A DNA stretch of 54,389 nucleotides, from assembly GCA_017656135.1 (NCBI GenBank), contig JACDOJ010000008.1:1-54389 (forward strand), read 5' to 3'. Made by a program: the position numbers and the translations under genes. Numbering within the stretch: position 1 is the first letter of the stretch; every line of letters starts with the position of its first letter. The notes beneath the pieces were generated by a model. It saw only the letters and a program-made list of their open reading frames with translations, made no database searches and had not been told where the DNA came from. Origin of the DNA: Bacillota bacterium. Its GTDB lineage: Bacteria > Bacillota > UBA5301. Of the stretch, positions 2,975 through 49,454 are shown in pieces.

Positions 2975-3012
2975 AAAGAAAAATAGTTAAGGATTTGGAA
3001 CGGAGGAAAAAG

Positions 3013-4295: not shown

Positions 4296-4297
4296 GA

Positions 4298-4522: not shown

Positions 4523-4529
4523 GGAGGTC
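4507..4529 (+). repeat. Perfect inverted repeat across the 4522 stop codon
   Basis: GACCTCCTC (4507-4515) and GAGGAGGTC (4521-4529) form a perfect 9-bp stem with a TGAGT loop. The 3' arm is an almost ideal Shine-Dalgarno sequence, and the 5' arm mimics the 16S anti-SD. The stem spans the end of the PASTA-like gene and lies 22 bases before the preferred uppS start. There is no T-run, so it is not a terminator. It may govern reinitiation at uppS. Confidence 0.6.
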
Positions 4530-4551
4530 AAGTACTCAGGAGAGAACGGTT

Positions 4552-6065: not shown

Positions 6066-6072
6066 GTGTACT

Positions 6073-9325: not shown

Positions 9326-9335
9326 GGGTGAGGTT

Positions 9336-10400: not shown

Positions 10401-10401
10401 G

Positions 10402-12108: not shown

Positions 12109-12110
12109 AC

Positions 12111-12749
12111 GTGGATTTTGCCGTTATTATCCCTGCTTTCAATGAAGGTAGGACCATCGGCAAGGTGATTGATTGCGCACTGAAGGCTCAGCAGATGGAT
12201 AGTAGGATAGCCGAAATCATTGTGGTTGATGACGGATCTCAAGATGACACCGCTTTAGTTGCCGAAACCTACGGGGTGAAAGTTATCCGTCTGCCCCGGA
12301 ATTTAGGGAAAGGAGCGGCCATGGTTGCCGGGGTGGCGGCCACCCAGTGCGCAGGGATTTTGTTTTTAGACGGTGACCTTATAGGACTTGAACCCAAACA
12401 TCTGAAATTACTTATAGATCCCATTTACAATGGATCCGCCCGAATGACCTTGGGTGTTTTTGATGCCGGCAGAATCTCTACTGACTTGGCCCAGGCGGTT
12501 GCCCCACATATCAGCGGACAGCGGGCCATGTTTAGGGAGGATTTTCTGAAGGTCAAAGGATTGGAGGATTCCCGCTTCGGTGTAGATATCGCCTTGACCA
12601 ACTACGCCAATAAATGGAAGTGGCCGATTCAAAAGGTTCCTCTGCGCGGCGTGACCCAGGTGATGAAGGAGGAGAAGTACGGGTTCTTCAATGGGGCCAA
12701 AGCCCGGCTGAAGATGTACTGGGATATTTTGAAGCAAATTAGGGCTTAA
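12111..12749 (+). CDS. Family 2 glycosyltransferase, soluble
   Basis: This 212-residue protein has a GT-A fold: N-terminal VIIPAFNEG, VVDDGS at about residues 43-48, NLGKGAAM, and the metal-binding FLDGD (DxD-like) near residue 90. It has no transmembrane segment, unlike dolichol-phosphate mannosyltransferases with membrane tails. It resembles glucosyl-3-phosphoglycerate synthase-like GT2 enzymes, but the acceptor cannot be told. GTG 12111 follows AAGGAG with good spacing. The gene lies two bases after proS and 15 before polC, so it is probably co-expressed with both. Confidence 0.8.
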   Translation: MDFAVIIPAFNEGRTIGKVIDCALKAQQMDSRIAEIIVVDDGSQDDTALVAETYGVKVIRLPRNLGKGAAMVAGVAATQCAGILFLDGDLIGLEPKHLKLLIDPIYNGSARMTLGVFDAGRISTDLAQAVAPHISGQRAMFREDFLKVKGLEDSRFGVDIALTNYANKWKWPIQKVPLRGVTQVMKEEKYGFFNGAKARLKMYWDILKQIRA

Positions 12750-12764
12750 AGGTTGGTGAATTGA

Positions 12765-15700: not shown

Positions 15701-16190
15701 TAGAATCGCTTGGTTCAAGGTACACTATCCGGAGGCCTTTTACGCCACCTATTTCACGGTGCGAGCCGACGAGTTCGATGTGGCTCTGGTAGCCGGAGGG
15801 CTGCCGGAGGTAAACAAAACTATCAAGGAATACGAGGCCAAAGGGAACTCCGCCACCGCCCGGGAGAAAAACATCCTTACCATTTTAGAGGTTGTCCGAG
15901 AAGCGCTGTTACGGGGCATCACCTTTGGTTCTGTGGACCTATATAAGAGCGATGCCACTGCTTTTAAAATTGCCGGGAAGAAACTCATTCCCCCTTTTAT
16001 CAGCATCTCTGGACTTGGAGAATCGGCTGCCGAATCCATTGTGACCGCCAGAGCAGAAGGGGCTTTCACCTCGGTGGAGGATCTACGCAGCCGCACCGGT
16101 CTCTCCAAAACCCTTATCGAGGTCCTAAAGGAGCAGGGAACAATCGGCAACCTGCCGGAGACCAACCAGATGAACCTTTTTGCCTTCTAG
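12765..16190 (+). CDS. polC: DNA polymerase III alpha subunit PolC, lacking the proofreading exonuclease domain
   Basis: This is the main replicative polymerase of Firmicutes. The protein has 1141 residues, about 300 fewer than B. subtilis PolC. Order: N-terminal domain with TTCEYC near residue 86; OB fold (about 130-230); PHP domain starting at HFHTKMSAMDG (about 242) with ITDHG; zinc-finger region CPKC...CPRCG; palm with PDIDLNFSGE carrying catalytic Asp668 and Asp670; helix-hairpin-helix and the C-terminal clamp-binding QMNLF. In standard PolC an exonuclease with DVETTG interrupts PHP just after the GMEAN-like strand; here residues near 300-320 run straight into LVRNQAGLKNLYKLVS, with no DEDD motifs. 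The start is GTG 12765; ATG 12786 is an alternative. Confidence 0.95.
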   Translation: MSLAEEKMEISHLTWDKIWERLLAECLTGEEHRRWAAHLDVKEVVVQKQAGSWRIVLSGPEDLPQETRQKIMNYLSNYLSRLVPTTCEYCGDKPSVAVTNDWEYYQRLQEFRHQQAAAAEGLFGRPFQAESVTLDQVEHSGDKVTVLGKVIAVDSRELRNSKTLLTFDLTDYTDSITVKLIGDDEVRALVGSIKKGQWLTVSGVTEVDQYLQEIVLSPKFIDEAEPPVDRVDQADEKRVELHFHTKMSAMDGLVDVEEAVALAASWGHKAIAITDHGVVQAFPEAFSARQKYRIKIIYGMEGYLCAGEEEPEFERTHHILILVRNQAGLKNLYKLVSQSHLEHFYRHPRLSRQLLEKHREGLLLGSACENGELFQAILAGQPEEKLLEVASFYDFLEIQPLGNNDFLVREGRASLDQLKEYNRTICRLGEILGKPVVATGDVHFLRPRDEVYRRILMYGQGYSDAEKQAPLYFRTTEEMLAEFEYLGEDLARKVVIESPNQIADMVEEVIPVPQEFCGPQLPGSAEEIRRLTMETAHKLYGSDLPEIVQKRLERELDSIINNGFAELYMIAHKLVQKSLSDGYLVGSRGSVGSSLVATMSKITEVNPLPPHYLCPKCQYSQFITNGSVNSGVDLPDADCPRCGAKLLKEGHDIPFETFLGFNGDKVPDIDLNFSGEYQPVVHKYTEELFGEGHVFRAGTIATLADRTAYGFVRKYLDEKGIKKRRAEINRLVQGCTGVKRTTGQHPGGLMIVPKDRKIFDFTPIQHPANDAKSGTITTHFDYKAISSRLVKLDILGHDDPTVLRMLQDITGVRPQSIPLDDKETMAIFSGLGSLGLNEEELGSKVGTLGVPEFGTRFVRQMLEETRPKTFGELVRISGLSHGTDVWLNNAQEWIHSGQASLAEVISTRDDIMTHLLLKGVDPLTSFKIMEKVRKGKGITPEDVEVMKKAGVAEWFIESCRRIKYLFPKAHAVAYVTMAFRIAWFKVHYPEAFYATYFTVRADEFDVALVAGGLPEVNKTIKEYEAKGNSATAREKNILTILEVVREALLRGITFGSVDLYKSDATAFKIAGKKLIPPFISISGLGESAAESIVTARAEGAFTSVEDLRSRTGLSKTLIEVLKEQGTIGNLPETNQMNLFAF

Positions 16191-16193
16191 ACC

Positions 16194-16222
16194 TTGCATT
16201 GCTCAGAAAGTAATGGTAAAAT
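16194..16222 (+). promoter_or_regulatory. Sigma-A type promoter of the rimP-nusA-infB operon
   Basis: TTGCAT (16194-16199) and TAAAAT (16217-16222) are spaced by 17 bases, with TGG before the -10 (extended -10). It begins only three bases after the polC stop, so the translation-factor operon has its own start. Confidence 0.7.
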
Positions 16223-16229
16223 GTTTGTG

Positions 16230-16347
16230 GAGTTTTGTTTACGTGTGTGAATGAGTGGGTCTCGCCCACTCATTCTCTGTTAATGCCGACAGAATTTTCC
16301 CTTACCTACCAGGTAAAACTAGATGTGCGAGGAACAGGAGGAAATCC
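16230..16347 (+). promoter_or_regulatory. Structured leader upstream of rimP
   Basis: The leader contains a perfect 11-bp hairpin (GAATGAGTGGG 16249-16259 / CCCACTCATTC 16265-16275), then a smaller hairpin TTACCT (16302-16307) / AGGTAA (16311-16316). Between them TTCTCTGT can pair with ACAGAA, which would compete with the base of the first stem. There is no T-run, so simple intrinsic termination is unlikely. Alternative folding, processing or protein binding are possible. Confidence 0.5.
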
Positions 16348-37241: not shown

Positions 37242-37306
37242 TCAGGAGACCTGGCATACAATTATCATGAAGATCCCGCCATTTGATTCTGCGAGGGGGT
37301 TTCAAC

Positions 37307-38476
37307 ATGATTCACAGGTTCCGGTCAGGAATTTTCCTGATTGTTGTTCTTGTTGTTCTGATTGCCAGCGTTCCTTGTGCCAGTGCCGGCCTGCCCATCA
37401 AGGCCAAATCTGCCATTCTGATCGAAGCTCAAACCGGAGAGGTCCTCTACGAACACAACCCTGACGAGAAACTGCCGATAGCCAGTGTAACCAAGATCAT
37501 GACACTGGTCTTGGCTTTAGAGGCGCTAAATGAGGGCAAGGTGAGCATGGATGATGTGGTGGTCGGCAGTTATCTCGCCAAATCCATGGGTGGGACTCAG
37601 ATTTGGCTGGAGGAAGGAGAGCAGATGTCCTTCCGGGATATGCTCTATGCAGTGGCTGTGGGCTCAGCCAACGACTGTGCCGTGGCTATCGGCGAGTACC
37701 TCGGAGGCTCCTTTGATGCCTTTGTAGAGCACATGAACCGGAAAGCTCAGGAATTGGGGATGGTCAATACTCACTACGCCAATCCCACCGGGCTAGATGC
37801 TCCTGACCACTACTCCACGGCCAGAGATATCGCTATTCTCTCCAGGTACGCAGTGCAGCTGCCGCTGTTTTTGGACCTGGTTTCCACCTGGGAGTACTGG
37901 GTTCGCCAAGACACCCCACAGGAGGTCTGGCTAACATCTTTCAACAAACTTCTCAAGCAGTATCCAGGCTGTGACGGAATCAAGACCGGCTACACCAGTA
38001 CCGCTGGGTACTGCCTTTCAGCCACAGCCAAAAGAAACGGGCTGAGGTTAATTGCGGTTGCCTTGGGCTCGAGCACCAGGGATGACCGGAATAACACCAT
38101 TAAAGCCCTTCTGGATTACGGTTTCCAGATGTACAAAGCGGAGAAACTTGTCTCCCAGGGCGAATCCTTCGGCCGGCTTCCGGTGATTCTTGGGGTTACA
38201 GACAGTGTGGAACTGGTCTCCTGTTCTGAGCTGCGGTACCCGGTCAAAAAAGGAACCGAGCTAACTCTGACCAAGAAAGTCAACCTGCCGGAGACTGTTA
38301 CCGCCCCCATCGCCAAAGATCAGGTCATCGGGGAAGTGGTCTTCACTGACCGGTCAGGGAAAGTGGTCGCCAAAACAGAGATTGTGGCAGCGGAAAGTAT
38401 AGAGAGAGCAGGCTTTTTCAAGATTATCAAGCAGACGGTTCATCAACTCCTCAAGGCATTGTTCTTCAGAAAATAG
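37307..38476 (+). CDS. dacF: D-alanyl-D-alanine carboxypeptidase DacF
   Basis: DacF is a low-molecular-mass penicillin-binding protein that trims peptidoglycan stem peptides, in B. subtilis during spore cortex formation. The 389-residue product has a signal peptide (1-30, ending near ASA-G), the active-site SVTK, SAN in VGSANDC and KTG in IKTGYTS, then a C-terminal beta domain (PBP5_C) and an amphipathic end. ATG 37307 follows GAGGGGG by seven bases; the upstream TTG 37283 lacks a site. It precedes the spoIIA operon as in Bacillus. Confidence 0.95.
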   Translation: MIHRFRSGIFLIVVLVVLIASVPCASAGLPIKAKSAILIEAQTGEVLYEHNPDEKLPIASVTKIMTLVLALEALNEGKVSMDDVVVGSYLAKSMGGTQIWLEEGEQMSFRDMLYAVAVGSANDCAVAIGEYLGGSFDAFVEHMNRKAQELGMVNTHYANPTGLDAPDHYSTARDIAILSRYAVQLPLFLDLVSTWEYWVRQDTPQEVWLTSFNKLLKQYPGCDGIKTGYTSTAGYCLSATAKRNGLRLIAVALGSSTRDDRNNTIKALLDYGFQMYKAEKLVSQGESFGRLPVILGVTDSVELVSCSELRYPVKKGTELTLTKKVNLPETVTAPIAKDQVIGEVVFTDRSGKVVAKTEIVAAESIERAGFFKIIKQTVHQLLKALFFRK

Positions 38477-38505
38477 AGCCAAGTACGCCAAATTATGGCA
38501 GGATT

Positions 38506-38551
38506 CCCTCTTTACAAGGTCGAAAGTGAGAATGACCTTTGTAAAGGAGGG
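38506..38551 (+). promoter_or_regulatory. Long hairpin sequestering the spoIIAA ribosome binding site
   Basis: The arm at 38506-38521 (CCCTCTTTACAAGGTC) pairs with 38534-38551 (GACCTTTGTAAAGGAGGG) over 16 base pairs with two single-base bulges (T40 region and G47) and a 12-base loop. The 3' arm is the complete Shine-Dalgarno sequence AAAGGAGGG, and the stem ends seven bases before the spoIIAA GTG. There is no T-run, so it is not a terminator. It should block initiation unless opened. Confidence 0.75.
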
Positions 38552-38557
38552 AAGTTT

Positions 38558-38896
38558 GTGCGTTTAGAGCTGGAGAAGAACGGACGAACTCTGGTGGCGA
38601 GACTGGGCGGTGATCTGGACCTCAATTCTGCCCCTCTTTTCAGAGAAAAAATCGATCAGGCCCTCGCCGATTACGAGATGATCAATAGACTGATCTTAAA
38701 CTTGGCCGAGGTTAATTTCGTCGATAGCTCCGGATTGGGCGTTATTTTAGGTCGGTTCAAGAAGATCCGCTCCCGGGGTGGTACGATGTACCTGGTGGAT
38801 GTCCCCCCATCAGTCAGTAAAGTTTTCGAGCTCAGCGGCCTCTTCAAGATAATCCCGGAAAAAGACACCGAACAGAGCGCTATGGAGACTGCTTAG
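38558..38896 (+). CDS. spoIIAA: Anti-sigma F factor antagonist SpoIIAA
   Basis: SpoIIAA is the STAS-domain anti-anti-sigma factor that frees sigma-F from SpoIIAB in the forespore. The 112-residue product begins at GTG 38558, with AAAGGAGGG six bases upstream. The phosphorylated serine lies in VDSSGLGVILGR. A frame extends in-register to ATG 38495 but that start has no binding site and B. subtilis SpoIIAA aligns with the shorter form. Translation is probably limited by the hairpin over its binding site. Confidence 0.94.
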   Translation: MRLELEKNGRTLVARLGGDLDLNSAPLFREKIDQALADYEMINRLILNLAEVNFVDSSGLGVILGRFKKIRSRGGTMYLVDVPPSVSKVFELSGLFKIIPEKDTEQSAMETA

Positions 38897-38909
38897 GAGG
38901 ATTATAATT

Positions 38910-39392
38910 ATGCCAGAAAGTCGCGGCGGGAAGTACCGGACAAACTTCATGACTCTCAATTTTCCCTCTAAGCCGGAGAATGTAGCCTTTGCTAGGGTGG
39001 CGGTGGCTTCTTTTGCCACCCAACTCCCCTTCACCCTGGAAGAGATCGACGAGATCAAAGTGGCCACTAGCGAGGCCGTTTCCAACTGTGTCATCCACGG
39101 TTATCCTGAGAAGGAAGGAATCGTTCAGGTAGAAGCCGTTATCGATGAGGGAATTTTCAAGTTAACCATCAAAGATTCCGGGGTCGGTATTGCTGATTTA
39201 GAGGCAGCCAGGGAACCTTCTTACTCCACTGATCCGGAGCGGATGGGTCTCGGGTTGGTCTTCATGGAATCTTTCATGGATTCCTTGGAGATCGAAACCG
39301 CTCTGGGTTCCGGTACCACAGTTTACATGACCAAGAAACCAAGCTTAGGAGCTGGCAGTGACACGGACTTGAAAGGTCATGAACTTCAATAA
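38910..39392 (+). CDS. spoIIAB: Anti-sigma F factor SpoIIAB
   Basis: SpoIIAB is a GHKL kinase that holds sigma-F inactive and phosphorylates SpoIIAA. The 160-residue product shows the N-box ATSEAVSNCVIHGYP, the G1 box IKDSGVGIAD and the G2 region PERMGLGLVFMESFMD. Its C-terminal 14 residues extend beyond the 146-residue B. subtilis protein, through overlap with sigF. AGGAGG precedes ATG 38910. Confidence 0.95.
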   Translation: MPESRGGKYRTNFMTLNFPSKPENVAFARVAVASFATQLPFTLEEIDEIKVATSEAVSNCVIHGYPEKEGIVQVEAVIDEGIFKLTIKDSGVGIADLEAAREPSYSTDPERMGLGLVFMESFMDSLEIETALGSGTTVYMTKKPSLGAGSDTDLKGHELQ

Positions 39393-40143
39393 TCTGGTTT
39401 TTGAACCGGGGAACCCCCTCCCCAGCGAGAAACTGAATGAACTCATTTGCCGGGCTCAGTCCGGGGATACTGAGGCCCGAGAAGCAGCGGTTCGTGCCAA
39501 CTTGCGCCTGGTTATGTCCGTGGCCAAGCGTTTCCTCAGTTTCGATTACGAATTGGATGACTTGTTTCAGATCGGCTGTCTGGGCCTTTTTAAAGCCATT
39601 GATCGTTTTGATCCGGAGCGTGGCCTGAAGTTCTCAACTTACGCCGTTCCTTTGATCATCGGCGAGATTCGCTCCTTCATCAGGGACGATGGGCCGGTGA
39701 AGGTTAGTAGAGGCCTCAAAGAGAGGTATCTCAAACTGAACAGCCTACGCCAGCGTTACCAGGCTGAAAACGGGGAAGAGCCCACCCTGGAAAAATTAGC
39801 CGAACTCTCGGGGTTAAGCCCTGAAGAGGTGGTGGCCACATTGGACTCAGGCAACAAACCGGTATCTCTCAATGAAGTGATTTATGCCGCAGATGGAAAA
39901 CCGGTCTGCCGGGAGGAAACCCTGGCGGCTACCGAGAATGATGTAGATTTGGTCACTGACAGGGTTTCTCTGACGAAGGTACTGGATTCTTTACCCCAGC
40001 GGGAGCGGCAGATCCTTCTTTTAAGGTATCTCCAGGACTACTCTCAGACCCAGATCGCAGAGCGGTTTGGGATTTCCCAGGTACACGTCTCAAGGCTGCT
40101 CAAAAAAGCCATTCGCCAGGTTCAGGAAGCCTTGAATTCCTAG
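39379..40143 (+). CDS. sigF: RNA polymerase sporulation sigma factor SigF
   Basis: Sigma-F directs early forespore gene expression. The 254-residue product (255 in B. subtilis) contains region 2 with RANLRLVMSVAKRF and DLFQIGCLGLFKAIDRFDP, region 3, and region 4 with LPQRERQILLLRYLQDYSQTQ and the helix-turn-helix IAERFGISQVHVSRLLKKA. It starts at ATG 39379, overlapping spoIIAB by 14 bases. The three genes form the classic spoIIA operon. Confidence 0.96.
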   Translation: MNFNNLVFEPGNPLPSEKLNELICRAQSGDTEAREAAVRANLRLVMSVAKRFLSFDYELDDLFQIGCLGLFKAIDRFDPERGLKFSTYAVPLIIGEIRSFIRDDGPVKVSRGLKERYLKLNSLRQRYQAENGEEPTLEKLAELSGLSPEEVVATLDSGNKPVSLNEVIYAADGKPVCREETLAATENDVDLVTDRVSLTKVLDSLPQRERQILLLRYLQDYSQTQIAERFGISQVHVSRLLKKAIRQVQEALNS

Positions 40144-40162
40144 AGATAGGTGATATAGAAGC

Positions 40163-40203
40163 ATGCCCCCCAGTCATAAACATGGATGGGGGGTATCTTT
40201 TTT
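40163..40203 (+). terminator. Terminator-like hairpin between sigF and spmA
   Basis: ATGCCCCCCA (40163-40172) pairs with TGGGGGGTAT (40187-40196) over ten positions around a 14-base loop, followed by CTTTTTT to 40203. It is a good intrinsic terminator, yet its T-run overlaps the probable spmA start at 40202 and its G-run is the only Shine-Dalgarno-like sequence for that start. It may attenuate read-through into spmA. Confidence 0.7.
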
Positions 40204-40786
40204 GGTCAATATGCTTTGGCTGATCATGATCGTCACAGGCATCGCCTTCGCCTTGGCCTCCGGTCGAGTAGCTGAACTGGCCCCGGCCATCTTTTCCAGT
40301 GCAGAACTGGCCGTGGAGCTGATCATTGGCTTGGTGGGAGTGATGGGTTTTTGGCTGGGGCTGGCGAAATTGATCCAGAGAAGCGGTTTGCTTCAGGGCT
40401 TTATCCGCCTCTTGCGCCCTGTGGTCCGGGCTCTCTTTCCATCGGTTCCGGCTAATCATCCGGCTACCGGTGTGATTTTAATGAATATCACCGCCAATCT
40501 TTTAGGTTTGGGTAACGCGGCTACGCCTTTTGGGCTTAGAGCCATGCACTACCTGCAGGAGCTCAACCCGCGGCCAAAAGAGGCTTCAGATGCCATGTGT
40601 ACCTTCATGGCCTTGAATACCGCCTGTATTACTCTGGTGCCGACCATGGTTATCGCCATACGGACTGCCCAAGGTTCACGGGCCCCGGGGGAGATCATCG
40701 GAACTACTTTGGTTTCCACCCTGGTTGCCACCACAGTCGCAGTGATCCTTGACTACTTTTTTAGAAGACTCAGGGGGAGGCGGTAG
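40202..40786 (+). CDS. spmA: Spore maturation protein A
   Basis: SpmA, with SpmB, is needed for proper dehydration of the spore core. The 194-residue product (about 196 in B. subtilis) is a nucleoside-recognition (Gate) domain membrane protein with NITANLLGLGNAATPFG and helices at about residues 2-25, 36-60, 80-130 and 155-185. I prefer TTG 40202, which gives MVNMLW, similar to the B. subtilis start MVNIIW-like; ATG 40211 is an alternative, and ATG 40163 would begin in the hairpin. It is followed directly by spmB. Confidence 0.88.
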   Translation: MVNMLWLIMIVTGIAFALASGRVAELAPAIFSSAELAVELIIGLVGVMGFWLGLAKLIQRSGLLQGFIRLLRPVVRALFPSVPANHPATGVILMNITANLLGLGNAATPFGLRAMHYLQELNPRPKEASDAMCTFMALNTACITLVPTMVIAIRTAQGSRAPGEIIGTTLVSTLVATTVAVILDYFFRRLRGRR

Positions 40787-40787
40787 G

Positions 40788-41324
40788 ATGCTGGCCCGCG
40801 CGCTTTTGGTCTTCTCTGACTGGTTGGTCCCCGTCCTTTTGGTGCTCATCTTGATTCATGCCTACTGGAAAAGGGTTAAGGTCTTCGAGATTTTCGCTGA
40901 GGGGGCCAAAGAGGCTTTGACCCTGGCCGGCTCCATTTTTCCCTACTTGCTGGCTATGCTCATAGCTATCGGCATTTTGCGGGCCTCCGGGGCTTTAGAG
41001 TTCCTGTCGGAACTCCTCGCACCTCTCTTGGCTTTTTTGGGCATCCCTAAAGAGGTTTTGCCTATGGCCTTGCTTAGGCCCCTTTCCGGCAGCGGCGCTC
41101 TGGGGGTAATGACCACCCTCATTGCCGAATATGGCCCGGACAGCCTGATCGGCAGAATAGCTTCGACCATGCAGGGTTCTACCGAGACCACCTTTTATGT
41201 CTTGGCCGTTTATTTTGGGTCAGTGGGCATCACCAGTTATCGCCATGCTCTTTGGGTTGGGCTCCTCTCGGATTTGGCCGCCTTCTTGACGGCGGTCTGG
41301 GTCTGCAGGCTAGTTTTTTCCTAA
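40788..41324 (+). CDS. spmB: Spore maturation protein B
   Basis: SpmB is the partner of SpmA in spore core dehydration. The 178-residue polytopic protein contains the Gate domain motif LLRPLSGSGALGVM and QGSTETTFYVLAVYFGSVG. ATG 40788 follows AGGGGGAGG; the frame extends to 40749 within spmA but has no site. The spmA-spmB pair adjoins sigF here. Confidence 0.93.
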   Translation: MLARALLVFSDWLVPVLLVLILIHAYWKRVKVFEIFAEGAKEALTLAGSIFPYLLAMLIAIGILRASGALEFLSELLAPLLAFLGIPKEVLPMALLRPLSGSGALGVMTTLIAEYGPDSLIGRIASTMQGSTETTFYVLAVYFGSVGITSYRHALWVGLLSDLAAFLTAVWVCRLVFS

Positions 41325-41376
41325 AAAGGTATTTTCAGGAAAACGCCGAATAACCAGGGGTGAGGGAGGAAGCTCA

Positions 41377-42798
41377 GTGCCAAAAAGGATGGTTTCTTTT
41401 CTACCTTATATCCTGGTCATGTTAGGACTCGTCGGCATTTTTCTGGCCGGTGGCTTTATGGGAGGAGCTTTACCGGGCTACTTGCTGCTTTATTTTCTTC
41501 CGGTAGTAGGCAGCGCTGCCAGTCACTCCCTCTTTTTTGTCACCTTTACCGTTGCTGTAGCTGGGTTTTTCGCAAGTGTGGCTTGGGGCCGGATCTCCTT
41601 TCTTCTGTGGGGGAGTTTGGCTCTAGTTGGCTGGCTGAGCCTATTCTTGGTCAAGAGAGAGTGTCTTTTAGCCAAGGCCGGCTGGGAAGAGTATAAACTG
41701 TTGGCAGACCAGCATGTGGCCGCCCAGGATCATTTTGAAAGTTACTCCGCCCGGTTGATCAAAAAGAACCAGGAGCTAGAGAGCCGTCTTAATGAGCTAA
41801 ACACCCTCTACGGACTCACCACGGTCGTTGGCTCCACCACCGATTTGAAAAGGATTTACACAGACATCTCCGATGCTGTGGCCAAAATCTGTGGTTTCGA
41901 CTGTTTTATCTTCTTTGAAGCGGACCCAGGCGAGAAGTGTTTAGTGGTCAAAGAAGCTTCCGGGGTCTTTTCGCCTTGGCGAAAAGGGGACAAGCTCTTT
42001 TTCCACCAGGGAATCATCGGACGTCATGCCTCCTGGGGGCAGGTGGCCCTCATTGAGGATGTTAAAACCCAGACCGCGGCCCGGGCCACAGCGGAAGAAG
42101 AGTGGTTTAAATCTCTGATGGTCATTCCGGTGGCCGTGGACGGTCAGCTTTTGGCCGTTTTGGCTTTGGCCCGGGCCGAGGACCCGGCCTTCACCAGAAA
42201 CGAACTCTACATCGTTCAAAGTTTGGCCTGTCAGGTCGGGACGGCGATTCACCGGGCCTGGCTCTACAAGCGCCTAGAGGCCTTGGCAGTTACCGATGGG
42301 CTCACTGGCCTCGCCAATCGGCGGCACATGGAAGAAATCCTGCGCAGGGAATTTGCCCGGGCCGAACGCTATCAGCTGGTCCTCAGTGTGGTACTTTTAG
42401 ATGTGGACCACTTCAAACAGTACAATGACAACAACGGACACCAGGCCGGGGACAAGCTGCTGCAAAGGATCAGCGGGGTACTCAAAGAGTGCATCCGGGA
42501 AGTAGATATCGCCGCTCGCTACGGTGGAGAAGAGTTCCTCCTGATCCTGCCTGAGACCGGGAGGGGGGATGCCTTCGCCGTTGCCGAACGGATCAGGGAA
42601 AAGGTTAACACCCTCTCAGCCCCCGGGGCCGAAAAACAACCCTTAGGATGTCTCTCGGTAAGCTGCGGTGTAGCCTCCTATCCCCAGGATGCGCGAGGGC
42701 CGGAGCAGTTGGTCAAATGCGCCGATACCGCATTGTACCAGGCCAAAGCCAGAGGCCGGAATCACGTTGTCCTTTTTGCGTCTCCAGAGGACAGGTAA
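41377..42798 (+). CDS. Membrane-bound GAF-GGDEF diguanylate cyclase
   Basis: This 473-residue protein probably makes cyclic di-GMP. Residues 5-100 form three or four membrane helices, 105-145 a coiled-coil linker, 150-305 a GAF sensor domain, and 305-473 a GGDEF domain with VTDGLTGLANRRHMEE, VVLLDVDHFKQYND and the active-site GGEEF. An RxxD inhibitory site (REVD) lies five residues before GGEEF, so product inhibition is likely. It starts at GTG 41377 after GAGGGAGGAAG, 52 bases behind spmB. Confidence 0.92.
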   Translation: MPKRMVSFLPYILVMLGLVGIFLAGGFMGGALPGYLLLYFLPVVGSAASHSLFFVTFTVAVAGFFASVAWGRISFLLWGSLALVGWLSLFLVKRECLLAKAGWEEYKLLADQHVAAQDHFESYSARLIKKNQELESRLNELNTLYGLTTVVGSTTDLKRIYTDISDAVAKICGFDCFIFFEADPGEKCLVVKEASGVFSPWRKGDKLFFHQGIIGRHASWGQVALIEDVKTQTAARATAEEEWFKSLMVIPVAVDGQLLAVLALARAEDPAFTRNELYIVQSLACQVGTAIHRAWLYKRLEALAVTDGLTGLANRRHMEEILRREFARAERYQLVLSVVLLDVDHFKQYNDNNGHQAGDKLLQRISGVLKECIREVDIAARYGGEEFLLILPETGRGDAFAVAERIREKVNTLSAPGAEKQPLGCLSVSCGVASYPQDARGPEQLVKCADTALYQAKARGRNHVVLFASPEDR

Positions 42799-42845
42799 TC
42801 TCCAGTGTTGGATACATTTCCTTGCAGGCACTTTCTGTCCTTTAA

Positions 42846-42879
42846 GCGAATCACTTAAATACACAATTCCATAATTCGC
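42846..42879 (+). repeat. Inverted repeat in the intergenic region before the GNAT gene
   Basis: GCGAAT (42846-42851) and ATTCGC (42874-42879) are inverted copies 22 bases apart. The AT-rich interior contains no clear promoter pair. The rest of the 153-base gap (42799-42951) shows nothing I can name. Confidence 0.35.
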
Positions 42880-42951
42880 TAGACCCGGAGCATCGCAGTA
42901 ATTCGTCGTACTAATATTTTCAGCTTCATCGCGGGAAAGGTGGTAGCAATC

Positions 42952-43518
42952 ATGATTGAAGGTGAACGGGTTTATCTGGCTGAACTGAGAGAAGAGGACC
43001 TGCCGAAGATCCTCTCCTGGAACCTCGACGAGGAGCTTAACCAGTACATCGACAGTGATCTTCCAACCTCTCCAGAGGAATGCCGAAAGTGGTACCAGGC
43101 TTTGCAAAGCGATAGGTATGCTCAGAGTTTTGGCATCTACCTTTATGAAACCAATGAACTGATCGGTGAGATAGAGCTGATCAACATCACCTGGCGGAAC
43201 GGTCACGCCGAGCTCCGAATCAGAATCGGTGAGAAACAGTACTGGAATCAAGGTCTGGGTACAGAGGCTGTCCGGATCTTTCTGGGATATGTTTACCACC
43301 AGCTGAAACTGGAACGGGTATACCTGCGGGTTTATGAAACAAACAAGCGGGCTATTCGCTGTTACCGGAAGGCTGGGTTCAAGTTTGAGGGCAAACTGAC
43401 CAAAAGCCGACATGTTCCGAGAGACCAAGGCTCCATCATTCTGATGCGGATTCTCAGAAAGGAGTATTTGCGGAAAGAAAAACAGTGGCGGCGTGAGTTG
43501 GGCGCCCAGGTTAGCTAG
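42952..43518 (+). CDS. GNAT family N-acetyltransferase
   Basis: This is a 188-residue protein of the RimJ/RimL-SpeG type. It begins with VYLAELREEDLPKILSW, continues with GEIELINI and the acetyl-CoA loop QGLGTEAVR, and has the C-terminal VYLRVYETNKRAIRCYRKAGF typical of the family. Its substrate (protein N-terminus, polyamine or small molecule) cannot be told. I place the start at ATG 42952, eight bases after GGTGG; GTG 42940 would add four residues. Confidence 0.88.
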   Translation: MIEGERVYLAELREEDLPKILSWNLDEELNQYIDSDLPTSPEECRKWYQALQSDRYAQSFGIYLYETNELIGEIELINITWRNGHAELRIRIGEKQYWNQGLGTEAVRIFLGYVYHQLKLERVYLRVYETNKRAIRCYRKAGFKFEGKLTKSRHVPRDQGSIILMRILRKEYLRKEKQWRRELGAQVS

Positions 43519-43591: not shown

Positions 43592-43765
43592 ATGGAATAT
43601 GATTCTCACTACCGGGCTTTTCGCCAGTATGCTCGACTACGGAACCAGCTCAAAGGCAGCCATACAGATGTCATAGAAAAAATTATGCTCCGGCGTCGGA
43701 TGAAGAACCTGGCTGACTTTTGTATAATCCGGCCTAACCAAGAGAGCAGGAGAAAAATTGAATAG
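43592..43765 (+). CDS. Small basic protein, 57 residues, unknown
   Basis: ATG 43592 lies 12 bases after AAAGGAGGC and opens a 57-codon frame ending at TAG 43763-43765. The peptide starts MEYDSHYRAFRQYARLRNQL and is rich in Arg, with predicted amphipathic helix content and no membrane segment. It might bind nucleic acid or a partner protein. The spacing to the binding site is long, so translation is likely but not certain. It is the only candidate gene in the 291 bases between the acetyltransferase and the first SLH protein. Confidence 0.5.
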   Translation: MEYDSHYRAFRQYARLRNQLKGSHTDVIEKIMLRRRMKNLADFCIIRPNQESRRKIE

Positions 43766-43809
43766 CAGCGAAGTATAAGCTAACCTTTTTCCGTTTGAGG
43801 TGACTACTT

Positions 43810-44400
43810 ATGCTGCGCAAGTTCATTCTATATTGCCTCCTTGTAGGAGGCCTTTTTTTATCCCCGGCTGTTTTCGCTTCGGGCCAGTACTCAGATATTA
43901 CCGAGGGCCATTGGGCCTGGCCGTACCTGCAGAAATTGGCTGAGGTCGGCGTCTTGGAACCCTTTGATTCCTCTGAATTTGCCGGCGATAAGCCCCTAAC
44001 CAGGTTTGAATACCTACAAAGCACCGCCGCCCTCTTGGATTACCTGGACCTCAATTCCAGCCAAGTTGCCGGCGAGGTGGAGGCGAAAAAGTATACCCTC
44101 CGTTTAGAGGAAGAGGTCTCCGATCTCGCGAACCGGCTTAACACGCTGGAGGCCAGATTCCGCCTCCAGGATATCGTCTTGGAGAGTCTTAAAGCGGACC
44201 TCTCGGATTTGGACACGAATGGCACCTTAACCCTAAATACCACTCTCTCCACCGCAGAAATCCAGAGTTATGAGGCGCGCATCTCTCAGCTTGAGAAATC
44301 CGTGAATGAACTACAAAATGTGATCAATAAGAAAGATGAGCAAATCCAACACCTGTACATAATCATTGCTCTTCTAGGAGCTACCAGTATTCTCAAATAG
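43810..44400 (+). CDS. Exported SLH-domain coiled-coil protein with hydrophobic C-terminus (short form)
   Basis: This 196-residue protein has a signal peptide (1-23, cleavage near VFA-SG), one SLH domain (about 26-80: YSDITEGHWAWPYLQKLAEVG, then GDKPLTRFEYLQ), a heptad-rich coiled coil (about 88-180) and a hydrophobic C-terminal tail LYIIIALLGATSI. SLH domains bind pyruvylated wall polymers or peptidoglycan. The order SLH-coiled coil-membrane anchor equals that of Thermotoga Omp-alpha, which spans the periplasm to the outer membrane. Anchoring in the inner membrane cannot be excluded. It precedes exbB by 75 bases; AGCAGG/CCTGCT (44408-44428) forms a small hairpin in that gap. Confidence 0.82.
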   Translation: MLRKFILYCLLVGGLFLSPAVFASGQYSDITEGHWAWPYLQKLAEVGVLEPFDSSEFAGDKPLTRFEYLQSTAALLDYLDLNSSQVAGEVEAKKYTLRLEEEVSDLANRLNTLEARFRLQDIVLESLKADLSDLDTNGTLTLNTTLSTAEIQSYEARISQLEKSVNELQNVINKKDEQIQHLYIIIALLGATSILK

Positions 44401-44475
44401 CCTCAAGAGCAGGAACTAACTGCCTGCTGTCGAAGGTTTTACCTATTACAGTGGAAGTGACAGGAGGAGGCACTA

Positions 44476-45090
44476 ATGATCGAACTGTTCCGGCAGGGCG
44501 GGATTATCATGTACCCGCTGCTCTTCTTATCAATTCTGGCTCTGGCAGTTATCATCGAACGCATCTACTATTTCCTGATGATTCGGGACGACTTGGAAGA
44601 AGTCATGGACAAGGTGGAAAGCGCCCTTAAACGGGACCGGGTTTTGGAGGCCATGCAGATTGCCAGGCGGGCCAAGGGGCCGGTGGCTGCAGTTTTGGCA
44701 GCTGCCATCGCCCATAAAGGCGAAAGCCGTCATGTGCTTGAGGATTACGTGCGCAAAGCCGGCAGTGAAGAGTTGTATAAGCTGGAGCGGGGTCTACCGG
44801 TTCTGGAAATGATCGTCACCATTTCCCCGCTTCTGGGCCTTTTAGGCACGGTTCTAGGTATTATCGAGAGTTTCAACATTTTAGGGGCTATGCAGGGTGT
44901 CTCGGAACCGGCGGTTTTGAGCGTGGGCATCGCCAAAGCCCTTTTGACCACCGCCACCGGTTTGGCCATTGCCATTCCAGTAGCTGTGTTCCATACCTAC
45001 TTCAACCGGAGAATCGATAAATTCCTTTTGGAGATGAACAAACGGTCGGTTGATATTGTCAATCTGTTGGCTGGTCGAGGTGAGAGCTAA
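44476..45090 (+). CDS. exbB: ExbB/TolQ/MotA-family proton channel protein
   Basis: This 204-residue inner-membrane protein has three helices: residues 12-35, 112-135 and 155-178. The conserved block TISPLLGLLGTVLGIIESF and ALLTTATGLAIAIPVAVFHTYF are the ExbB/TolQ signature, including the channel Thr residues. ExbB and ExbD form the stator that uses proton flow to drive TonB. The next two genes encode ExbD and TonB, so the ExbB assignment is preferred over TolQ or MotA. AGGAGGAGG precedes ATG 44476; the stop overlaps exbD (TAATG). Confidence 0.92.
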   Translation: MIELFRQGGIIMYPLLFLSILALAVIIERIYYFLMIRDDLEEVMDKVESALKRDRVLEAMQIARRAKGPVAAVLAAAIAHKGESRHVLEDYVRKAGSEELYKLERGLPVLEMIVTISPLLGLLGTVLGIIESFNILGAMQGVSEPAVLSVGIAKALLTTATGLAIAIPVAVFHTYFNRRIDKFLLEMNKRSVDIVNLLAGRGES

Positions 45091-45497
45091 TGTATTTCAC
45101 CCGGTCCAGCAAACGCAAACCGGAAATCAATGTCGTGCCCATGCTCGACGTTATCTTCTTTTTGTTAATCTTTTTCATGCTCTTTACCACCTTCCGTACG
45201 GATACCCAAGGTTTCAACCTGAACTTGCCCAAGGCCGTCACCGGAGACAATCAACCCAGCCAGCTTTTGACCGTGACTGTTACCGAGGATGGAACCATCT
45301 TTGTCAAGGATAGGCGGGCCGATGCGGACCTCGTCAAGTCGGAGGTCGCCTCATACCTGGAGAGCCACCCGCACGGGGTGGTCTTGTTGAAGGCCGATGA
45401 AACCGTTCGCTACCGGTATGTGGTCAAGGCCATGGATGCTATTCGGGCTGCCGGGGGGTACCGTATTGCCTTAGCAGTGGAAAAGGAATCCCTGTGA
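45090..45497 (+). CDS. exbD: ExbD/TolR-family biopolymer transport protein
   Basis: This 135-residue protein has one N-terminal helix and a periplasmic domain. The helix carries the essential proton-relaying Asp (Asp20) in NVVPMLDVIFFLLIFFMLF, preceded by a short basic cytoplasmic stretch. The periplasmic domain ends with the conserved YVVKAMDAIRAAGGYRIALA. It overlaps exbB by one base, indicating coupled production of the stator. Confidence 0.93.
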   Translation: MYFTRSSKRKPEINVVPMLDVIFFLLIFFMLFTTFRTDTQGFNLNLPKAVTGDNQPSQLLTVTVTEDGTIFVKDRRADADLVKSEVASYLESHPHGVVLLKADETVRYRYVVKAMDAIRAAGGYRIALAVEKESL

Positions 45498-45510
45498 TTC
45501 AGGTGAGGAC

Positions 45511-46539
45511 ATGAGATTTTCTAGTGATGACAACACCAATATTTATTGGGCACTAGCTGTTTCTCTGATCATCCACCTGGTACTGCTCTTCTTTGTGCCG
45601 GTCTTTAATCCCGGCCTGCTTTCGGGGGATCCTTCCCTGTCAGCCGGGGGGTACTTAGAGGTGGCTTATATTGAAAGCCTGCCGGGTCCAGGGACCGGAC
45701 CAGTGCAATCCACTGTGAAAATTGAGCCGGTGAAACCTAAAATCAACAAAACAGCCCAGAAGCCGGCCACCGAAGTCGAAGTAGTGGAAAAGCCGAAACC
45801 GAAGCCTGAACCTAAGCCGGAGCCAAAACCAGAACCTAAACTCGAACCTGAGATTGAACCTGAACCGGAACCTGAAATTAATCCTGAGCCCAAAGAGCAG
45901 GTGGAGCCGGTGCCAGAGCCAGAGCCAGAGCCGGAACCAGTTCCTGAGGTGGAAAATGAGCCGGCCCAGAAACCTGAGCCGGAGCCTGCTCCCGAAGAAA
46001 CTGTGGCGACTCAGGAAACTGAGCTTCGCGAAGAGGGCCTCATTTCCAGCAGCACCAGTCCTGAGGAGATAGTGCTGCCGGAGAAGAGTCAGCCTGCGGA
46101 GGAGACCGCGGCTCCTACCTCTTCGGCCGCTCCGTTAAAAGAGGAAGAACCGGATCTTGAGCCTAAGGAGGCACCGTCCGAAGAAACCGGGTCGGGCTCA
46201 GAGGGCAGTCCAGGCGAGGCGGCGCCGGATGGCAGCTCTTTCGTCCATTTCGGCCCGGCCCCGTATTTGCCCAAAAACATCAGCAACAAAGAGTTCGCCG
46301 GTCAGGTGGATCTGGCCGTGAAAGTCTCCTTGACCGGCAGCGTGGAGGAGATTTTGGTAGAGAACTCATCGGGTGACCTTGCTTTGGACGAATACGCCCA
46401 AAAGTTCGTGGAGTATCAGTGGAAGTTCCGGGCCGAAGAAACCGGGTATATCATTCACTTGAGTTTCAAGTATGAGAAGGACAAACCCAGAGCGGAAGTC
46501 ATTTACCGTGGCTTGGAACGGTTGGAGAGAGGAGAATAG
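45511..46539 (+). CDS. tonB: TonB-like energy transducer
   Basis: This 342-residue protein has an N-terminal membrane anchor with His (LAVSLIIHLVLLFF, about residues 14-30), a long Pro/Glu/Lys-rich periplasmic spacer (about 75-235, with many PEP units), and a C-terminal TonB domain (about 250-335: GQVDLAVKVSLTGSVEEIL, SSGDLALDEYA, YQWKF). Family proteins contact outer-membrane receptors. Its presence behind exbB/exbD argues for an outer membrane. The spacer would span a wide periplasm. No TonB-dependent receptor is in the window, so the driven partner is unknown. Confidence 0.9.
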   Translation: MRFSSDDNTNIYWALAVSLIIHLVLLFFVPVFNPGLLSGDPSLSAGGYLEVAYIESLPGPGTGPVQSTVKIEPVKPKINKTAQKPATEVEVVEKPKPKPEPKPEPKPEPKLEPEIEPEPEPEINPEPKEQVEPVPEPEPEPEPVPEVENEPAQKPEPEPAPEETVATQETELREEGLISSSTSPEEIVLPEKSQPAEETAAPTSSAAPLKEEEPDLEPKEAPSEETGSGSEGSPGEAAPDGSSFVHFGPAPYLPKNISNKEFAGQVDLAVKVSLTGSVEEILVENSSGDLALDEYAQKFVEYQWKFRAEETGYIIHLSFKYEKDKPRAEVIYRGLERLERGE

Positions 46540-46542
46540 GCG

Positions 46543-48576
46543 ATGCCCAGAGCCCTTCTAGCACTAGTGCTCATTGTCATAACCAGCCTGGTAACACCGC
46601 TGGCCGCTGACGCAGTGGAGAGCGAGGGGCTAAAGAATTCCGAAACCGTTTCAATCAGCAATGAGTACATCCGCATAGTCGTTAACGCGGAAGGGGAAAA
46701 TACTGGCAGGTTTGCCTTGGAAACTACTGGCGGTGACCCTGACCGCACGTCAGATGACGGCGAACCTCTGATTTACGGCAGACCTAAACCCTGGACCAGT
46801 TACACCACGGTTAGAGTCGACGACGAGGATTACGTTTTCGGTGGAAAGACTACTAAACGGGCCGGCCTTTCTGGTAAATACGGCGAGGTGGTTTCAGGTC
46901 CAGAGGTCCAAGGCGATGGTATTGAGATTACAGCAAAGCTGGGACCGGTGGAGGTCCTGCAGCGGTTGGAGTTTGCGGTCAGCTCCACCACCGGCTATCG
47001 GGATTCAGCCCGCATCATCTACCGGATCACCAATACCGATGCGGTTCCCCACGAGGTCGGGCTGCGGATCATGCTGGATACCCTGTTGGGAGCCAACGAC
47101 GGAGCCCCCTTCCGGTTTCACGAGGAAGCCATTTTGGGAGATGCCGAGTACCAGGGAGATGAGCTGCCCGATTTTTGGCAGGCCTTTGATTCCCTCAGCG
47201 ATCCCAGGGTGATCGCCCAGGGGACACTCAAGGGTCCCGATGTAACCACACCTGACCGGATCATCTTTTCCAACTGGGGCTCTTTTGCCGACGGTCTCTG
47301 GGAGATAGATTTCCAACCCGGCCGAGAGTTCTTGCGGTTGGGAGAGTTCGAGTTAGATAGCGCGGTCGGCCTCTACTGGGAGCCGGCAACCTTGCTCCCT
47401 GGTGAGAGCCGCACATATGTCACTGGTTACGGTATGGGCGGCCTCAGCATCAGTCCCGGTGAGCTCAGCCTTGGGGTTACTTCACCGGCCACTGTTGCCC
47501 TGGACAAAGACGGCCGGGCCCGGATTCCGGTGGTCGCCTACTTGGAGAACACCGGTGAGGGTATTGGCCGGGAGCTAACCATCACCCTAAAAGCTCCCAG
47601 TGGCATGGCCTTCTCCCCTGATACACCGCCAAGCAGGATAATTGGTTTTCTGCGTCCAGGTAAAAGCACCCAGGCCTCCTGGGTCCTGGTGGCTGATAGG
47701 CGCTTGGCCGGTCGCTCGGTGAGCCTGAGGGTGGAGGTGAAAGGGCCTGATATTGACACAGTTGCCGTGGAGCGGCGTCTGAAGATTTTAGGTCCGCCGG
47801 AGTTGGATTTCGAGCTCACCGGTTACCCTAAGGAGAATTCGGACTACTATGTTCTCGAGGCCAGCCTAGCCAATGAAGGTCAGTCCAGCGCCTATAACGT
47901 CGAAGCTGTGCTGGAATTGCCTGAAGGTTGGGAGGCTGCCCCACTGGAGAAAACCAACCGCTTTTTAGGGGAGCTGAAACCGGTTGAAGGCGGAGAAGGT
48001 CAGGTTATCCGGTGGCAGTGGCAGGTTAAGCCAATGCCCTTTGCGGCTCAACCTGAATTAGCAGCGAAAGTGACTTCCACCAACACCGACCCCATTACGG
48101 AAAGACTTCGGGAGCTTTCGTTGCCGCAACCGATGCCTAAGATCTTCATAGCGCCGGTTTCCGAGGCCTACGTTCCCGGTGATCTGGTGGAAGTAGCGAT
48201 AAAGGCCTTGGACATCCAAGGTTTCAGCGGGTTGCGCCTGGTACTGGCATACAACCCACAGCAATTGGCCTTTTTAGACTACAGCCGAGGCCACCTCTGG
48301 GTCGATGCAACTGGCCAGCCTTATGAGTTCAGTGTGAACCATAACCCGCATGCCGGGCAGATCATCCTGGAAGGGAAGATACCGGCGGGGAAAGGCATCT
48401 ACACCGGCAAAGGTGACGTTGTTCAGCTGAGATTTTTGGCCCTTGCCCCCGGCATAAGCCCGATTAAAGTGGTGGAAACACCGCTTTTATACAGCTCGGT
48501 AGCGGATCAAGATATCGCCTTAGAGGTCATACCGATTACCGTTAAGGAACAAGGAGTGGGTGTCAATGAGGAGTAG
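46543..48576 (+). CDS. Exported multi-domain protein with C-terminal cohesin-like domain
   Basis: This 677-residue protein has a signal peptide (1-25, near LAA-DA) without a lipobox Cys. Residues 35-310 form an unrecognised beta-rich domain containing RIIYRITNTDAVPHEVGLRI. Residues 310-530 look like two Ig-like NEW3/DUF11-type repeats (PVVAYLENTGEGIGRELTI; EASLANEGQSSAYNVEAVL). Residues 535-670 resemble a cohesin domain (VPGDLVEVAIKALDIQGFSG, LAYNPQQLAFLDYSRG, GKGDVVQLRFLAL). It lies three bases after tonB, so it is probably part of the same system. No dockerin partner is visible. Confidence 0.75.
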   Translation: MPRALLALVLIVITSLVTPLAADAVESEGLKNSETVSISNEYIRIVVNAEGENTGRFALETTGGDPDRTSDDGEPLIYGRPKPWTSYTTVRVDDEDYVFGGKTTKRAGLSGKYGEVVSGPEVQGDGIEITAKLGPVEVLQRLEFAVSSTTGYRDSARIIYRITNTDAVPHEVGLRIMLDTLLGANDGAPFRFHEEAILGDAEYQGDELPDFWQAFDSLSDPRVIAQGTLKGPDVTTPDRIIFSNWGSFADGLWEIDFQPGREFLRLGEFELDSAVGLYWEPATLLPGESRTYVTGYGMGGLSISPGELSLGVTSPATVALDKDGRARIPVVAYLENTGEGIGRELTITLKAPSGMAFSPDTPPSRIIGFLRPGKSTQASWVLVADRRLAGRSVSLRVEVKGPDIDTVAVERRLKILGPPELDFELTGYPKENSDYYVLEASLANEGQSSAYNVEAVLELPEGWEAAPLEKTNRFLGELKPVEGGEGQVIRWQWQVKPMPFAAQPELAAKVTSTNTDPITERLRELSLPQPMPKIFIAPVSEAYVPGDLVEVAIKALDIQGFSGLRLVLAYNPQQLAFLDYSRGHLWVDATGQPYEFSVNHNPHAGQIILEGKIPAGKGIYTGKGDVVQLRFLALAPGISPIKVVETPLLYSSVADQDIALEVIPITVKEQGVGVNEE

Positions 48577-49393
48577 GTTGTTTCGGAGTTCGCTCTGCCT
48601 GATCTTAATTTTGGCTCTCTCCCTGCCTGCCCTGGCGGCAGCTGAGATCAAGGATGTTCCCCCAAACCACTGGGCTTATAGCGCCGTGCAAAAACTCCTG
48701 GAAAAGGGATATCTCTCCCTCTACCAAGATGGGACCTTCCGGGGGGATAAAGCTGTAGACCGCTACACCTTTGCAGTGGTGGTTGCCAGGCTGATTTCGG
48801 AGATGGCGGCCTTAGGCAGCGGGCAACCGGCGACTGATAAAGTAGCTTCCGAGGATCTGCAGCTTTTGCGCAAGTTGACCACTGAGTTTCGGGATGAGCT
48901 GGTGCAGTTGGCCACAACCGATGAGTCCATTCAGGGCGACTTGGAAGCAGCCGCCAAGGAACAGACGGTCCTCAGGGAGGACTTAAATAAACTCCTGGTC
49001 CAAGTCTATCAGCTGCAGCAGTCCACTAAGGCTTTAGCCGAAAAGGATGAGAAGCTGTCCGGCGAGCTAGATGCGGTTCGGACTCAAGTGGAAGAGAACG
49101 GCCAAGCGATAGCAGGACTCAGTCAGGGGTTAGAGAAGAACCGGAGTGAACTCGGCAGCCTAAGATCTGATTTGGAGGCCTTGCAGACTAAAATCGATGA
49201 TGAGGTTCTTACCCGAACCTCCGGAACCTATGTCCGCCAGCAGTCCATGGAAAAAGAGCTCCAAAAACTGAGTCAGGAGTTTGAGAGTTACCGGCGCAGC
49301 TCCGAGGCTGAGCTGGAAGATTTGAAGAAGGAGAACCAGTGGCTGTTTATTGGTATGATTGGCAGCATTCTTTTGAGCTTCGTCCTGAATTAA
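48566..49393 (+). CDS. Exported SLH-domain coiled-coil protein with C-terminal membrane anchor (long form)
   Basis: This protein of about 275 residues has a signal peptide (1-25, near ALA-AA), one SLH domain (about 28-85: IKDVPPNHWAYSAVQKLLEKG, GDKAVDRYTFAVVVARL), a coiled coil of about 160 residues (95-255) and a C-terminal hydrophobic helix WLFIGMIGSILLSFVLN. The plan repeats that of the protein at 43810, with a coil nearly twice as long, and is that of Thermotoga Omp-alpha. ATG 48566 is nine bases after AAGGAG; GTG 48560 is only three. It overlaps the cohesin-like gene by 11 bases. Confidence 0.85.
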   Translation: MRSRLFRSSLCLILILALSLPALAAAEIKDVPPNHWAYSAVQKLLEKGYLSLYQDGTFRGDKAVDRYTFAVVVARLISEMAALGSGQPATDKVASEDLQLLRKLTTEFRDELVQLATTDESIQGDLEAAAKEQTVLREDLNKLLVQVYQLQQSTKALAEKDEKLSGELDAVRTQVEENGQAIAGLSQGLEKNRSELGSLRSDLEALQTKIDDEVLTRTSGTYVRQQSMEKELQKLSQEFESYRRSSEAELEDLKKENQWLFIGMIGSILLSFVLN

Positions 49394-49423
49394 GCTTAGA
49401 ACTGACCTGAATAGCCATGCAGA

Positions 49424-49454
49424 GGCGGGGATAATCCCGCCTTTGTTGTATAAT
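49424..49454 (+). terminator. Short terminator-like hairpin and -10 box before miaB
   Basis: GGCGGG (49424-49429) and CCCGCC (49436-49441) form a 6-bp GC-rich stem with a GATAAT loop, followed by TTTGTTG, a weak T-run. An exact TATAAT lies at 49449-49454, in the right place for a miaB promoter, but the region 17 bases upstream is inside the stem and lacks a -35. Read together they mark the boundary between the envelope cluster and the miaB-mutS-mutL operon. Confidence 0.55.

Follow-up and report, generated by a model that had tools for sequence, protein, structure and literature searches.

The described systems closest to the gene cluster reported here are Tol-Pal, the Ton system and SLH proteins of the cell envelope. 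In the Escherichia coli record, the Tol-Pal genes stand in the order tolQ-tolR-tolA-tolB-pal. According to a 2025 survey, Tol-Pal occurs only in Gracilicutes, and among diderm Firmicutes a Ton system is listed for the Negativicutes alone (PMC12204202); how the outer membrane moves with the dividing wall in other diderm Firmicutes is therefore an open question. For Halothermothrix orenii, a 2009 account reported a joint set of ExbB, ExbD and TonB, found no receptor, and suggested that the set has another function or that its receptors have diverged beyond detection (PMC2626281). From Thermotoga maritima, another report describes OmpA1/Omp-alpha, a protein of the toga (outer sheath) fraction with an N-terminal SLH domain, a coiled coil and about 20 hydrophobic C-terminal residues (PMC3387000). 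Here we analysed a stretch of 54,389 nucleotides (the window), which makes up contig C8 in the assembly of a Bacillota bacterium (1.9 Mb, 99% complete). We focused on five of its genes, at positions 44476-49393, encoding ExbB, ExbD, TonB, an exported cohesin-bearing protein (P5) and an SLH tether. We lean, without great confidence, towards reading these five genes as one dedicated proton-driven, Tol-Pal-like envelope machine that acts on the SLH tether.

Scanning a single genome from each species identified 226 stretches encoding a relative, and the best 80 of these 226 were analysed with their names. They belong to Limnochordia, to Halanaerobiales (Halanaerobium, Orenia, Halanaerobacter, Natroniella, Fuchsiella and Halonatronum) and to many unclassified Bacillota metagenome-assembled genomes, and cultured strains of Halanaerobium, Orenia, Halonatronum and Natroniella carry the cassette. 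We found that exbB-exbD-tonB-P5-SLH lay on the same strand, with gaps of a few bases, at 70 of the 80 loci, which are all 70 loci uncut by a contig end; in the remaining 10, a contig end interrupts the cassette. With the five-gene order kept in 70/70 loci that offered enough contig, the association is not due to chance. In the window, the five genes form an operon-like unit on the + strand, with overlaps of up to 11 nucleotides and gaps of at most 13 nucleotides, and exbB is preceded by a 75-nucleotide gap. Downstream of the SLH gene, between the cassette and miaB-mutS, an intrinsic-terminator-like hairpin (49419-49446, + strand) is followed by a UUUGUUGUA-type sequence; this strong hairpin was visible by RNA folding (-20.4 kcal/mol, z -5.1) and was not flagged by a consensus terminator scan.

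An earlier, sequence-only reading of this DNA had taken seven consecutive same-strand genes as one system. All seven open reading frames are present on the + strand, and family searches confirmed the labels given to them (SLH, ExbB, ExbD, TonB, cohesin-like exported protein, SLH), but the conserved unit is made of the last five genes, not seven. The small open reading frame of 57 residues had a counterpart, among the fetched loci, only in the nearest relative, L027/L047 (86% identity over 57 residues), and the upstream SLH gene is lineage-restricted, with counterparts in L027, L030, L038, L039 and L116. The seven-gene unit was therefore rejected, and the proposed pattern of two flanking SLH tethers proved to be confined to the window's family and a few other lineages.

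The cassette is also linked to the outer membrane. Within a sample of 61 relatives, where P5 orthologues were called at E below 1e-100, P5 was present in 18 genomes, and Omp85 in those 18 and one more. Of 200 genomes sampled from the phylum, 45 have a full-length P5; these spread over about 23 families and all have Omp85/BamA, and full-length P5 is missing from all 150 genomes without Omp85 (Fisher p 1.5e-39, uncorrected for kinship and computed on non-independent counts). Omp85 itself occurred in 50 of the 200, namely the 45 P5 genomes and five without the cassette (G034, G075, G112, G147 and G176), which may be Negativicutes; TonB receptors were found in all five, with up to eight Plug domains per genome. 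Matches to the P5 N-terminal domain in genomes lacking Omp85 were shorter and mostly parts of much larger proteins. One relative without Omp85 (L043) carries two adjacent giant open reading frames at 2996-9565 (2189 residues) and 9571-16308 (2245 residues), the second of which includes the P5 N-terminal domain, and similar large proteins occur in G155, G181, G184 and others.

We then compared the motor proteins with those of E. coli. The cassette ExbB (44476-45090, + strand, 204 residues) is an ExbB/TolQ-type proton-channel subunit (MotA_ExbB E 9e-31), and ExbD (45090-45497, + strand, 135 residues) an ExbD/TolR-type subunit (ExbD E 6e-32). Against NCBIfam models, ExbB scored 98 bits for TolQ and 69 bits for ExbB, and ExbD scored 84 bits for TolR and 58-59 bits for ExbD; all of these scores lie under the curated cut-offs, so the lean towards TolQ/TolR is slight evidence. 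The channel threonines T125 and T159 of ExbB align with E. coli TolQ/ExbB, and the transmembrane aspartate D20 of ExbD aligns with E. coli TolR/ExbD. By pattern search, the aspartate motif matched 71 of 73 ExbDs, the second threonine motif 73 of 73 ExbBs and the first, in a strict form, 61 of 73. TonB (45511-46539, + strand, 342 residues; TonB_C E 1.5e-6, above cut-off) is a TonB-type force transducer made of a transmembrane helix with an S-x3-H motif, a long Pro/Glu-rich linker and a TonB_C domain. A regular expression located S-x3-H in 63 of the 69 full-length TonBs, inspection added those of L114 and L115, and four have A-x3-H. The region holding the SHLS motif couples TonB and TolA to their motors (PMC12204202), and the S-x3-H of the cassette TonB falls within this region. 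The TonB C-terminal domain (46228-46536, + strand) was modelled alone by AlphaFold2 with a predicted local distance difference test score (pLDDT) of 82, and superposed on the E. coli TonB C-terminal domain (1xx3) at 1.8 Å root-mean-square deviation and a template modelling score (TM) of 0.74. Judged from these sequence features, the motor and the transducer look functional.

The Plug domain is the mark of TonB-dependent receptors. It was found in 14 of 45 cassette genomes and was not detectable in the other 31, and no TonB-dependent receptor lies in the cassette loci. Seven cassette genomes (G022, G069, G085, G107, G121, G141 and G194) have a receptor that adjoins its own tonB, exbB and exbD, and P5 and the SLH gene are absent from these seven loci. 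In a tree of 52 ExbB sequences, the 38 cassette ExbBs formed one clade (96/87) separate from 12 receptor-locus ExbBs, with the Halanaerobiales as a subclade (99/96) inside it, a topology that fits an old, largely vertical inheritance of the cassette. Sharing of the cassette with an ordinary receptor locus was thus rejected for the seven genomes with a separate receptor-linked ExbBD. On contig C9 of the window's genome, a gene for a TonB-dependent receptor precedes a second tonB (L045:8012-9787 and about 10542-10769, G000:C9). The only MotA/ExbB matches of this genome are that of the cassette and one beside an OmpA (MotB-type) match on C36, with none on C9; since no ExbB accompanies the C9 receptor and TonB, sharing was not rejected for this genome. 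Taken together, the cassette resembles the Ton system in its ExbB, ExbD and TonB homologues and its TonB C-domain fold, and differs from it in having no receptor, in the 31/45 cassette genomes without a detectable one and in the separate receptor-linked Ton loci. The ExbB, ExbD and TonB of H. orenii, a Halanaerobiales genome likewise without a detected receptor, are very likely the same cassette; P5 and SLH neighbours are not described in the available part of that account, which leaves the function open (PMC2626281).

These data bear on whether the cassette serves transport, with ExbBD-TonB driving a divergent receptor or porin of the outer membrane whose gene lies elsewhere, P5 binding substrate as a partner at the cell surface or in the periplasm, and the SLH protein being only a spacer from the wall. 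Such a role would suit a C-domain that is TonB-like rather than TolA-like, cohesin and immunoglobulin-like (Ig-like) domains typical of surface carbohydrate-handling proteins, and the C9 receptor and TonB, which the cassette motor may serve too. However, it appears unlikely, given the 31 genomes without a detectable Plug domain, the existence of dedicated receptor loci elsewhere, and flank clustering that recognised no receptor or porin family among the recurrent neighbours. The sequence-only reading had named conserved co-occurrence as the test of its system of TonB stator and structural tether, and the 70/70 loci and the P5-Omp85 match pass it; the opposite case it had named, exbBD-tonB beside a receptor with the SLH and cohesin genes elsewhere, is contradicted by receptor-linked Ton loci that are separate and lack P5 and SLH. 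Its overall idea of one system that combines stator and tether and acts on the outer membrane is thereby partly supported.

The core SLH tether (48566-49393, + strand, 275 residues; Pfam SLH E 9e-9) has the same architecture in the members uncut by a contig end: behind a signal peptide come a single SLH domain, a long coiled-coil-like stretch rich in charge, and a hydrophobic helix that ends at the C-terminus or a few residues before it. Pfam SLH was detected in 38 of 44 tethers at E 1e-4, and D30, A37, Y38, G48 and G60 are invariant in all 44. The Pfam scan returned no more than scattered matches to coiled-coil families, and no OmpA domain or barrel family, and no consistent lipobox was found in the tether. 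Tether length ranges from 218 to 1447 residues, with quartiles of 250-440. The C-terminus consists of a mean of 19.8 uncharged residues running (almost) to the end (n=72), with a 15-residue mean hydropathy of about 2-3; the 12 residues before the helix contain a mean of 3.1 K/R, and what follows it a mean of 0.3 K/R and no D/E. This missing basic stop-transfer tail argues against an ordinary inner-membrane anchor. The plan of SLH, coil-like stretch and hydrophobic C-terminus is that of Thermotoga Omp-alpha/OmpA1, which differs in pairing with the porin gene ompB, with no ExbBD-TonB partner mentioned in the available text (PMC3387000). The tether is thus probably a staple that holds outer membrane and cell wall together.

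We further compared the tether with OmpM/SlpA, with which it shares one SLH domain followed by a helical stalk. Residues 28-123, covering the SLH domain and the following stretch, matched the SLH-porin model NF033921 at 65 bits, under its cut-off, whereas the cassette tether lacks a beta-barrel and ends in a hydrophobic helix. At the end of another contig of the window's genome (L132:about 7480-9431, G000:C4), a gene lying 3′ of that for another apparent outer-membrane barrel protein encodes an OmpM-like protein, in which an SLH domain and a helical stalk are joined to an apparent beta-barrel; the cassette tether is thus additional to a separate OmpM-like protein.

A second possibility is that the C-terminal helix of the SLH protein sits in the inner membrane, so that the protein props the ExbBD-TonB-P5 motor on the wall, like MotB with the flagellar stator, while the pull acts on some other outer-membrane component through P5. 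We regard this as rather unlikely. The hydrophobicity of the C-terminal stretch (15-residue mean of about 2-3) does match an ordinary inner-membrane helix, and fixing a stator to the wall makes mechanical sense. Nevertheless, a helix with almost no charge behind it and a mean of 3.1 K/R ahead of it is the opposite of a normal stop-transfer, the wide range of tether lengths does not favour a brace, and the Thermotoga protein of the same plan is assigned to the outer sheath in the available part of its description (PMC3387000).

P5 (46543-48576, + strand, 677 residues) is an exported multi-beta-domain protein with matches to NPCBM_assoc and Cohesin (E 3e-5 each, barely above cut-off). Its AlphaFold2 model (mean pLDDT 89.9) matched strings of Ig-like domains plus cohesin, and no beta-propeller-only protein such as TolB was among the top structural matches. 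The cohesin domain (48166-48498, + strand; PF00963) was supported by a type II cohesin profile (E 2e-13) and by Foldseek (TM 0.80 to 4uyq). P5 thus shares the cohesin domain with cohesin-dockerin proteins of cellulosomes, but no dockerin (PF00404) was found in 17 cassette genomes, so the P5 cohesin serves no cellulosome of the usual kind, and a dockerin partner was discarded as a candidate. The N-terminal domain (46648-47475, + strand) holds 53 of the 66 invariant residues of the family and is therefore likely the functional core. A lipobox is inconsistent among P5 proteins (8/80 by a loose pattern). As a modelling device only, the TonB C-terminal domain and P5 were fused by reading through the in-frame TAG between them (window 46228-48573). 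The C-terminal domain block reached a confidence of 88-97 in the fusion versus 64-90 alone; as the alignments differ and there is no inter-domain error matrix, this rise is only suggestive of docking between the two.

The N-terminal domain of P5 also heads much larger proteins (open reading frames of >1000 residues) in other genomes, and SLH domains are common in surface layers, so the motor might instead drive surface-layer assembly or turnover, or the export of beta-domain proteins similar to P5; the SLH protein would then be part of the surface layer. We consider this improbable, since full-length P5 is confined to genomes with Omp85 and the SLH protein has one SLH domain and no other consistently recognised domain. 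Finally, the view that the gene order reflects an inherited co-transcribed block with no joint function, to which partly conserved flanks (spoIIA 5′ and miaB-mutS 3′, about 14-27 loci) lend some colour, is highly improbable, because no uncut locus separates the five genes, whereas the flanks vary by lineage, and P5 genomes span about 23 families.

We compared the cassette with Tol-Pal itself. The gene order is the same, with P5 in the place of TolB and the SLH tether in that of Pal, and both comprise a motor pair, a transducer of transmembrane helix, linker and C-terminal domain, an exported adaptor and a wall-binding envelope protein. A TolQ/TolR-type proton motor and a TolA-like transducer, with its C-domain in the TonB/TolA superfamily, are present. 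The cassette has no TolB beta-propeller, Pal lipoprotein or OmpA domain, and its adaptor and tether are non-homologous to those of Tol-Pal. TolB_N was not found in the 61 genomes, and P5, as modelled, is a string of beta-sandwiches; homology of P5 to TolB was rejected on these grounds. A Pal encoded elsewhere was also sought, and most genomes offered no candidate. In the 18 cassette genomes of the 61-genome sample, 16 of 19 OmpA-domain matches stand beside motA and are MotB-like rather than Pal, and three (G002:C59, G018:C91 and G044:C5) have no such assignment. With TolB and Pal sought and not found, the cassette does not belong to Tol-Pal proper. It may still work like Tol-Pal.

Several points weigh against a Tol-Pal-like machine. 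Both the sequence and the fold of the TonB C-domain lie nearer to TonB than to TolA, and ranking by profile placed TonB first and TolA last. P5, not being a beta-propeller, is no TolB homologue, and inspection by eye of P5 and of the tether revealed no conserved stretch resembling a TonB box. The tether is not a lipoprotein and contains no OmpA domain, and a single hydrophobic helix inserting in the outer membrane is unusual.

We propose that, in such a machine, ExbB and ExbD would act as an inner-membrane proton motor in which the flow of protons sets TonB moving. Held through its S-x3-H helix, TonB would span the periplasm and present its C-domain. P5 could be a free exported adaptor linking TonB and the tether, as TolB links TolA and Pal, so that the C-domain would engage P5 and, via P5, the tether. 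The tether would be an Omp-alpha-like staple, with its SLH domain on the wall and its C-terminal helix in the outer membrane, and a pull by TonB might load, release or relocate it, for example at the division septum, whereupon the outer membrane would follow the wall. More broadly, and with somewhat more doubt than belief, we suggest that Limnochordia and Halanaerobiales possess an ancient, largely vertically inherited proton-driven machine for outer-membrane constriction and stabilisation that is analogous to Tol-Pal and mobilises its tether, with an SLH staple for Pal and a cohesin-bearing adaptor for TolB.

The ExbBD-TonB motor, the SLH tether and the cohesin domain are each of known kinds. 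As far as the searchable literature goes, their combination is undescribed, as are the strictness with which it is conserved and its match to the outer membrane; no earlier description of the cassette was found in the open-licence literature, and a report elsewhere is possible. The cassette offers a concrete, testable candidate for moving the outer membrane, as it occurs in every sampled Omp85-bearing genome but five, all of which have TonB receptors. It also supplies a setting for the ExbBD-TonB of H. orenii, which was without a detected receptor and which the 2009 account left unexplained (PMC2626281). Should the tether be moved actively, losing it would bear on models of outer-membrane loss in Firmicutes, and if the proposal is true, active tether mobilisation by the proton motive force would have arisen in more than one form across Bacteria.

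Outside the conserved core, the window contains the small basic open reading frame (43592-43765, + strand, 57 residues), which, by its sequence counterpart, is a real gene, restricted among the fetched loci to the window's family. It is followed by the upstream SLH protein (43810-44400, + strand, 196 residues; Pfam SLH E 5e-7), which also has a coiled-coil-like stretch and a C-terminal hydrophobic anchor. In three other loci (L038:13572-15942, L039:2464-4767 and L116:3469-5805), the second SLH gene 5′ of the cassette adjoins a gene for an exported protein of 521-557 residues, which in L039 and L116 bears a VPLDSRPANTYSP motif. Further 5′ in the window, dacF-spoIIAA-spoIIAB-sigF and a GNAT gene occupy 37283-43518, the last about 290 nucleotides from the upstream SLH gene. 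Flank clustering showed that the cassette flanks differ by lineage, and recovered the spoIIA neighbourhood in about 25 loci and a GNAT-type gene in about 30, so the sporulation operon and the outer-membrane cassette are long-standing neighbours. The same clustering identified a gene for a secreted protein of about 200 residues 3′ of the tether gene in about 22 loci. This gene is a regular neighbour in the Halanaerobiales loci L058, L060, L070, L074, L097 and L110, and in L058 a nucleoside-diphosphate-kinase-like gene intervenes between it and the tether gene.

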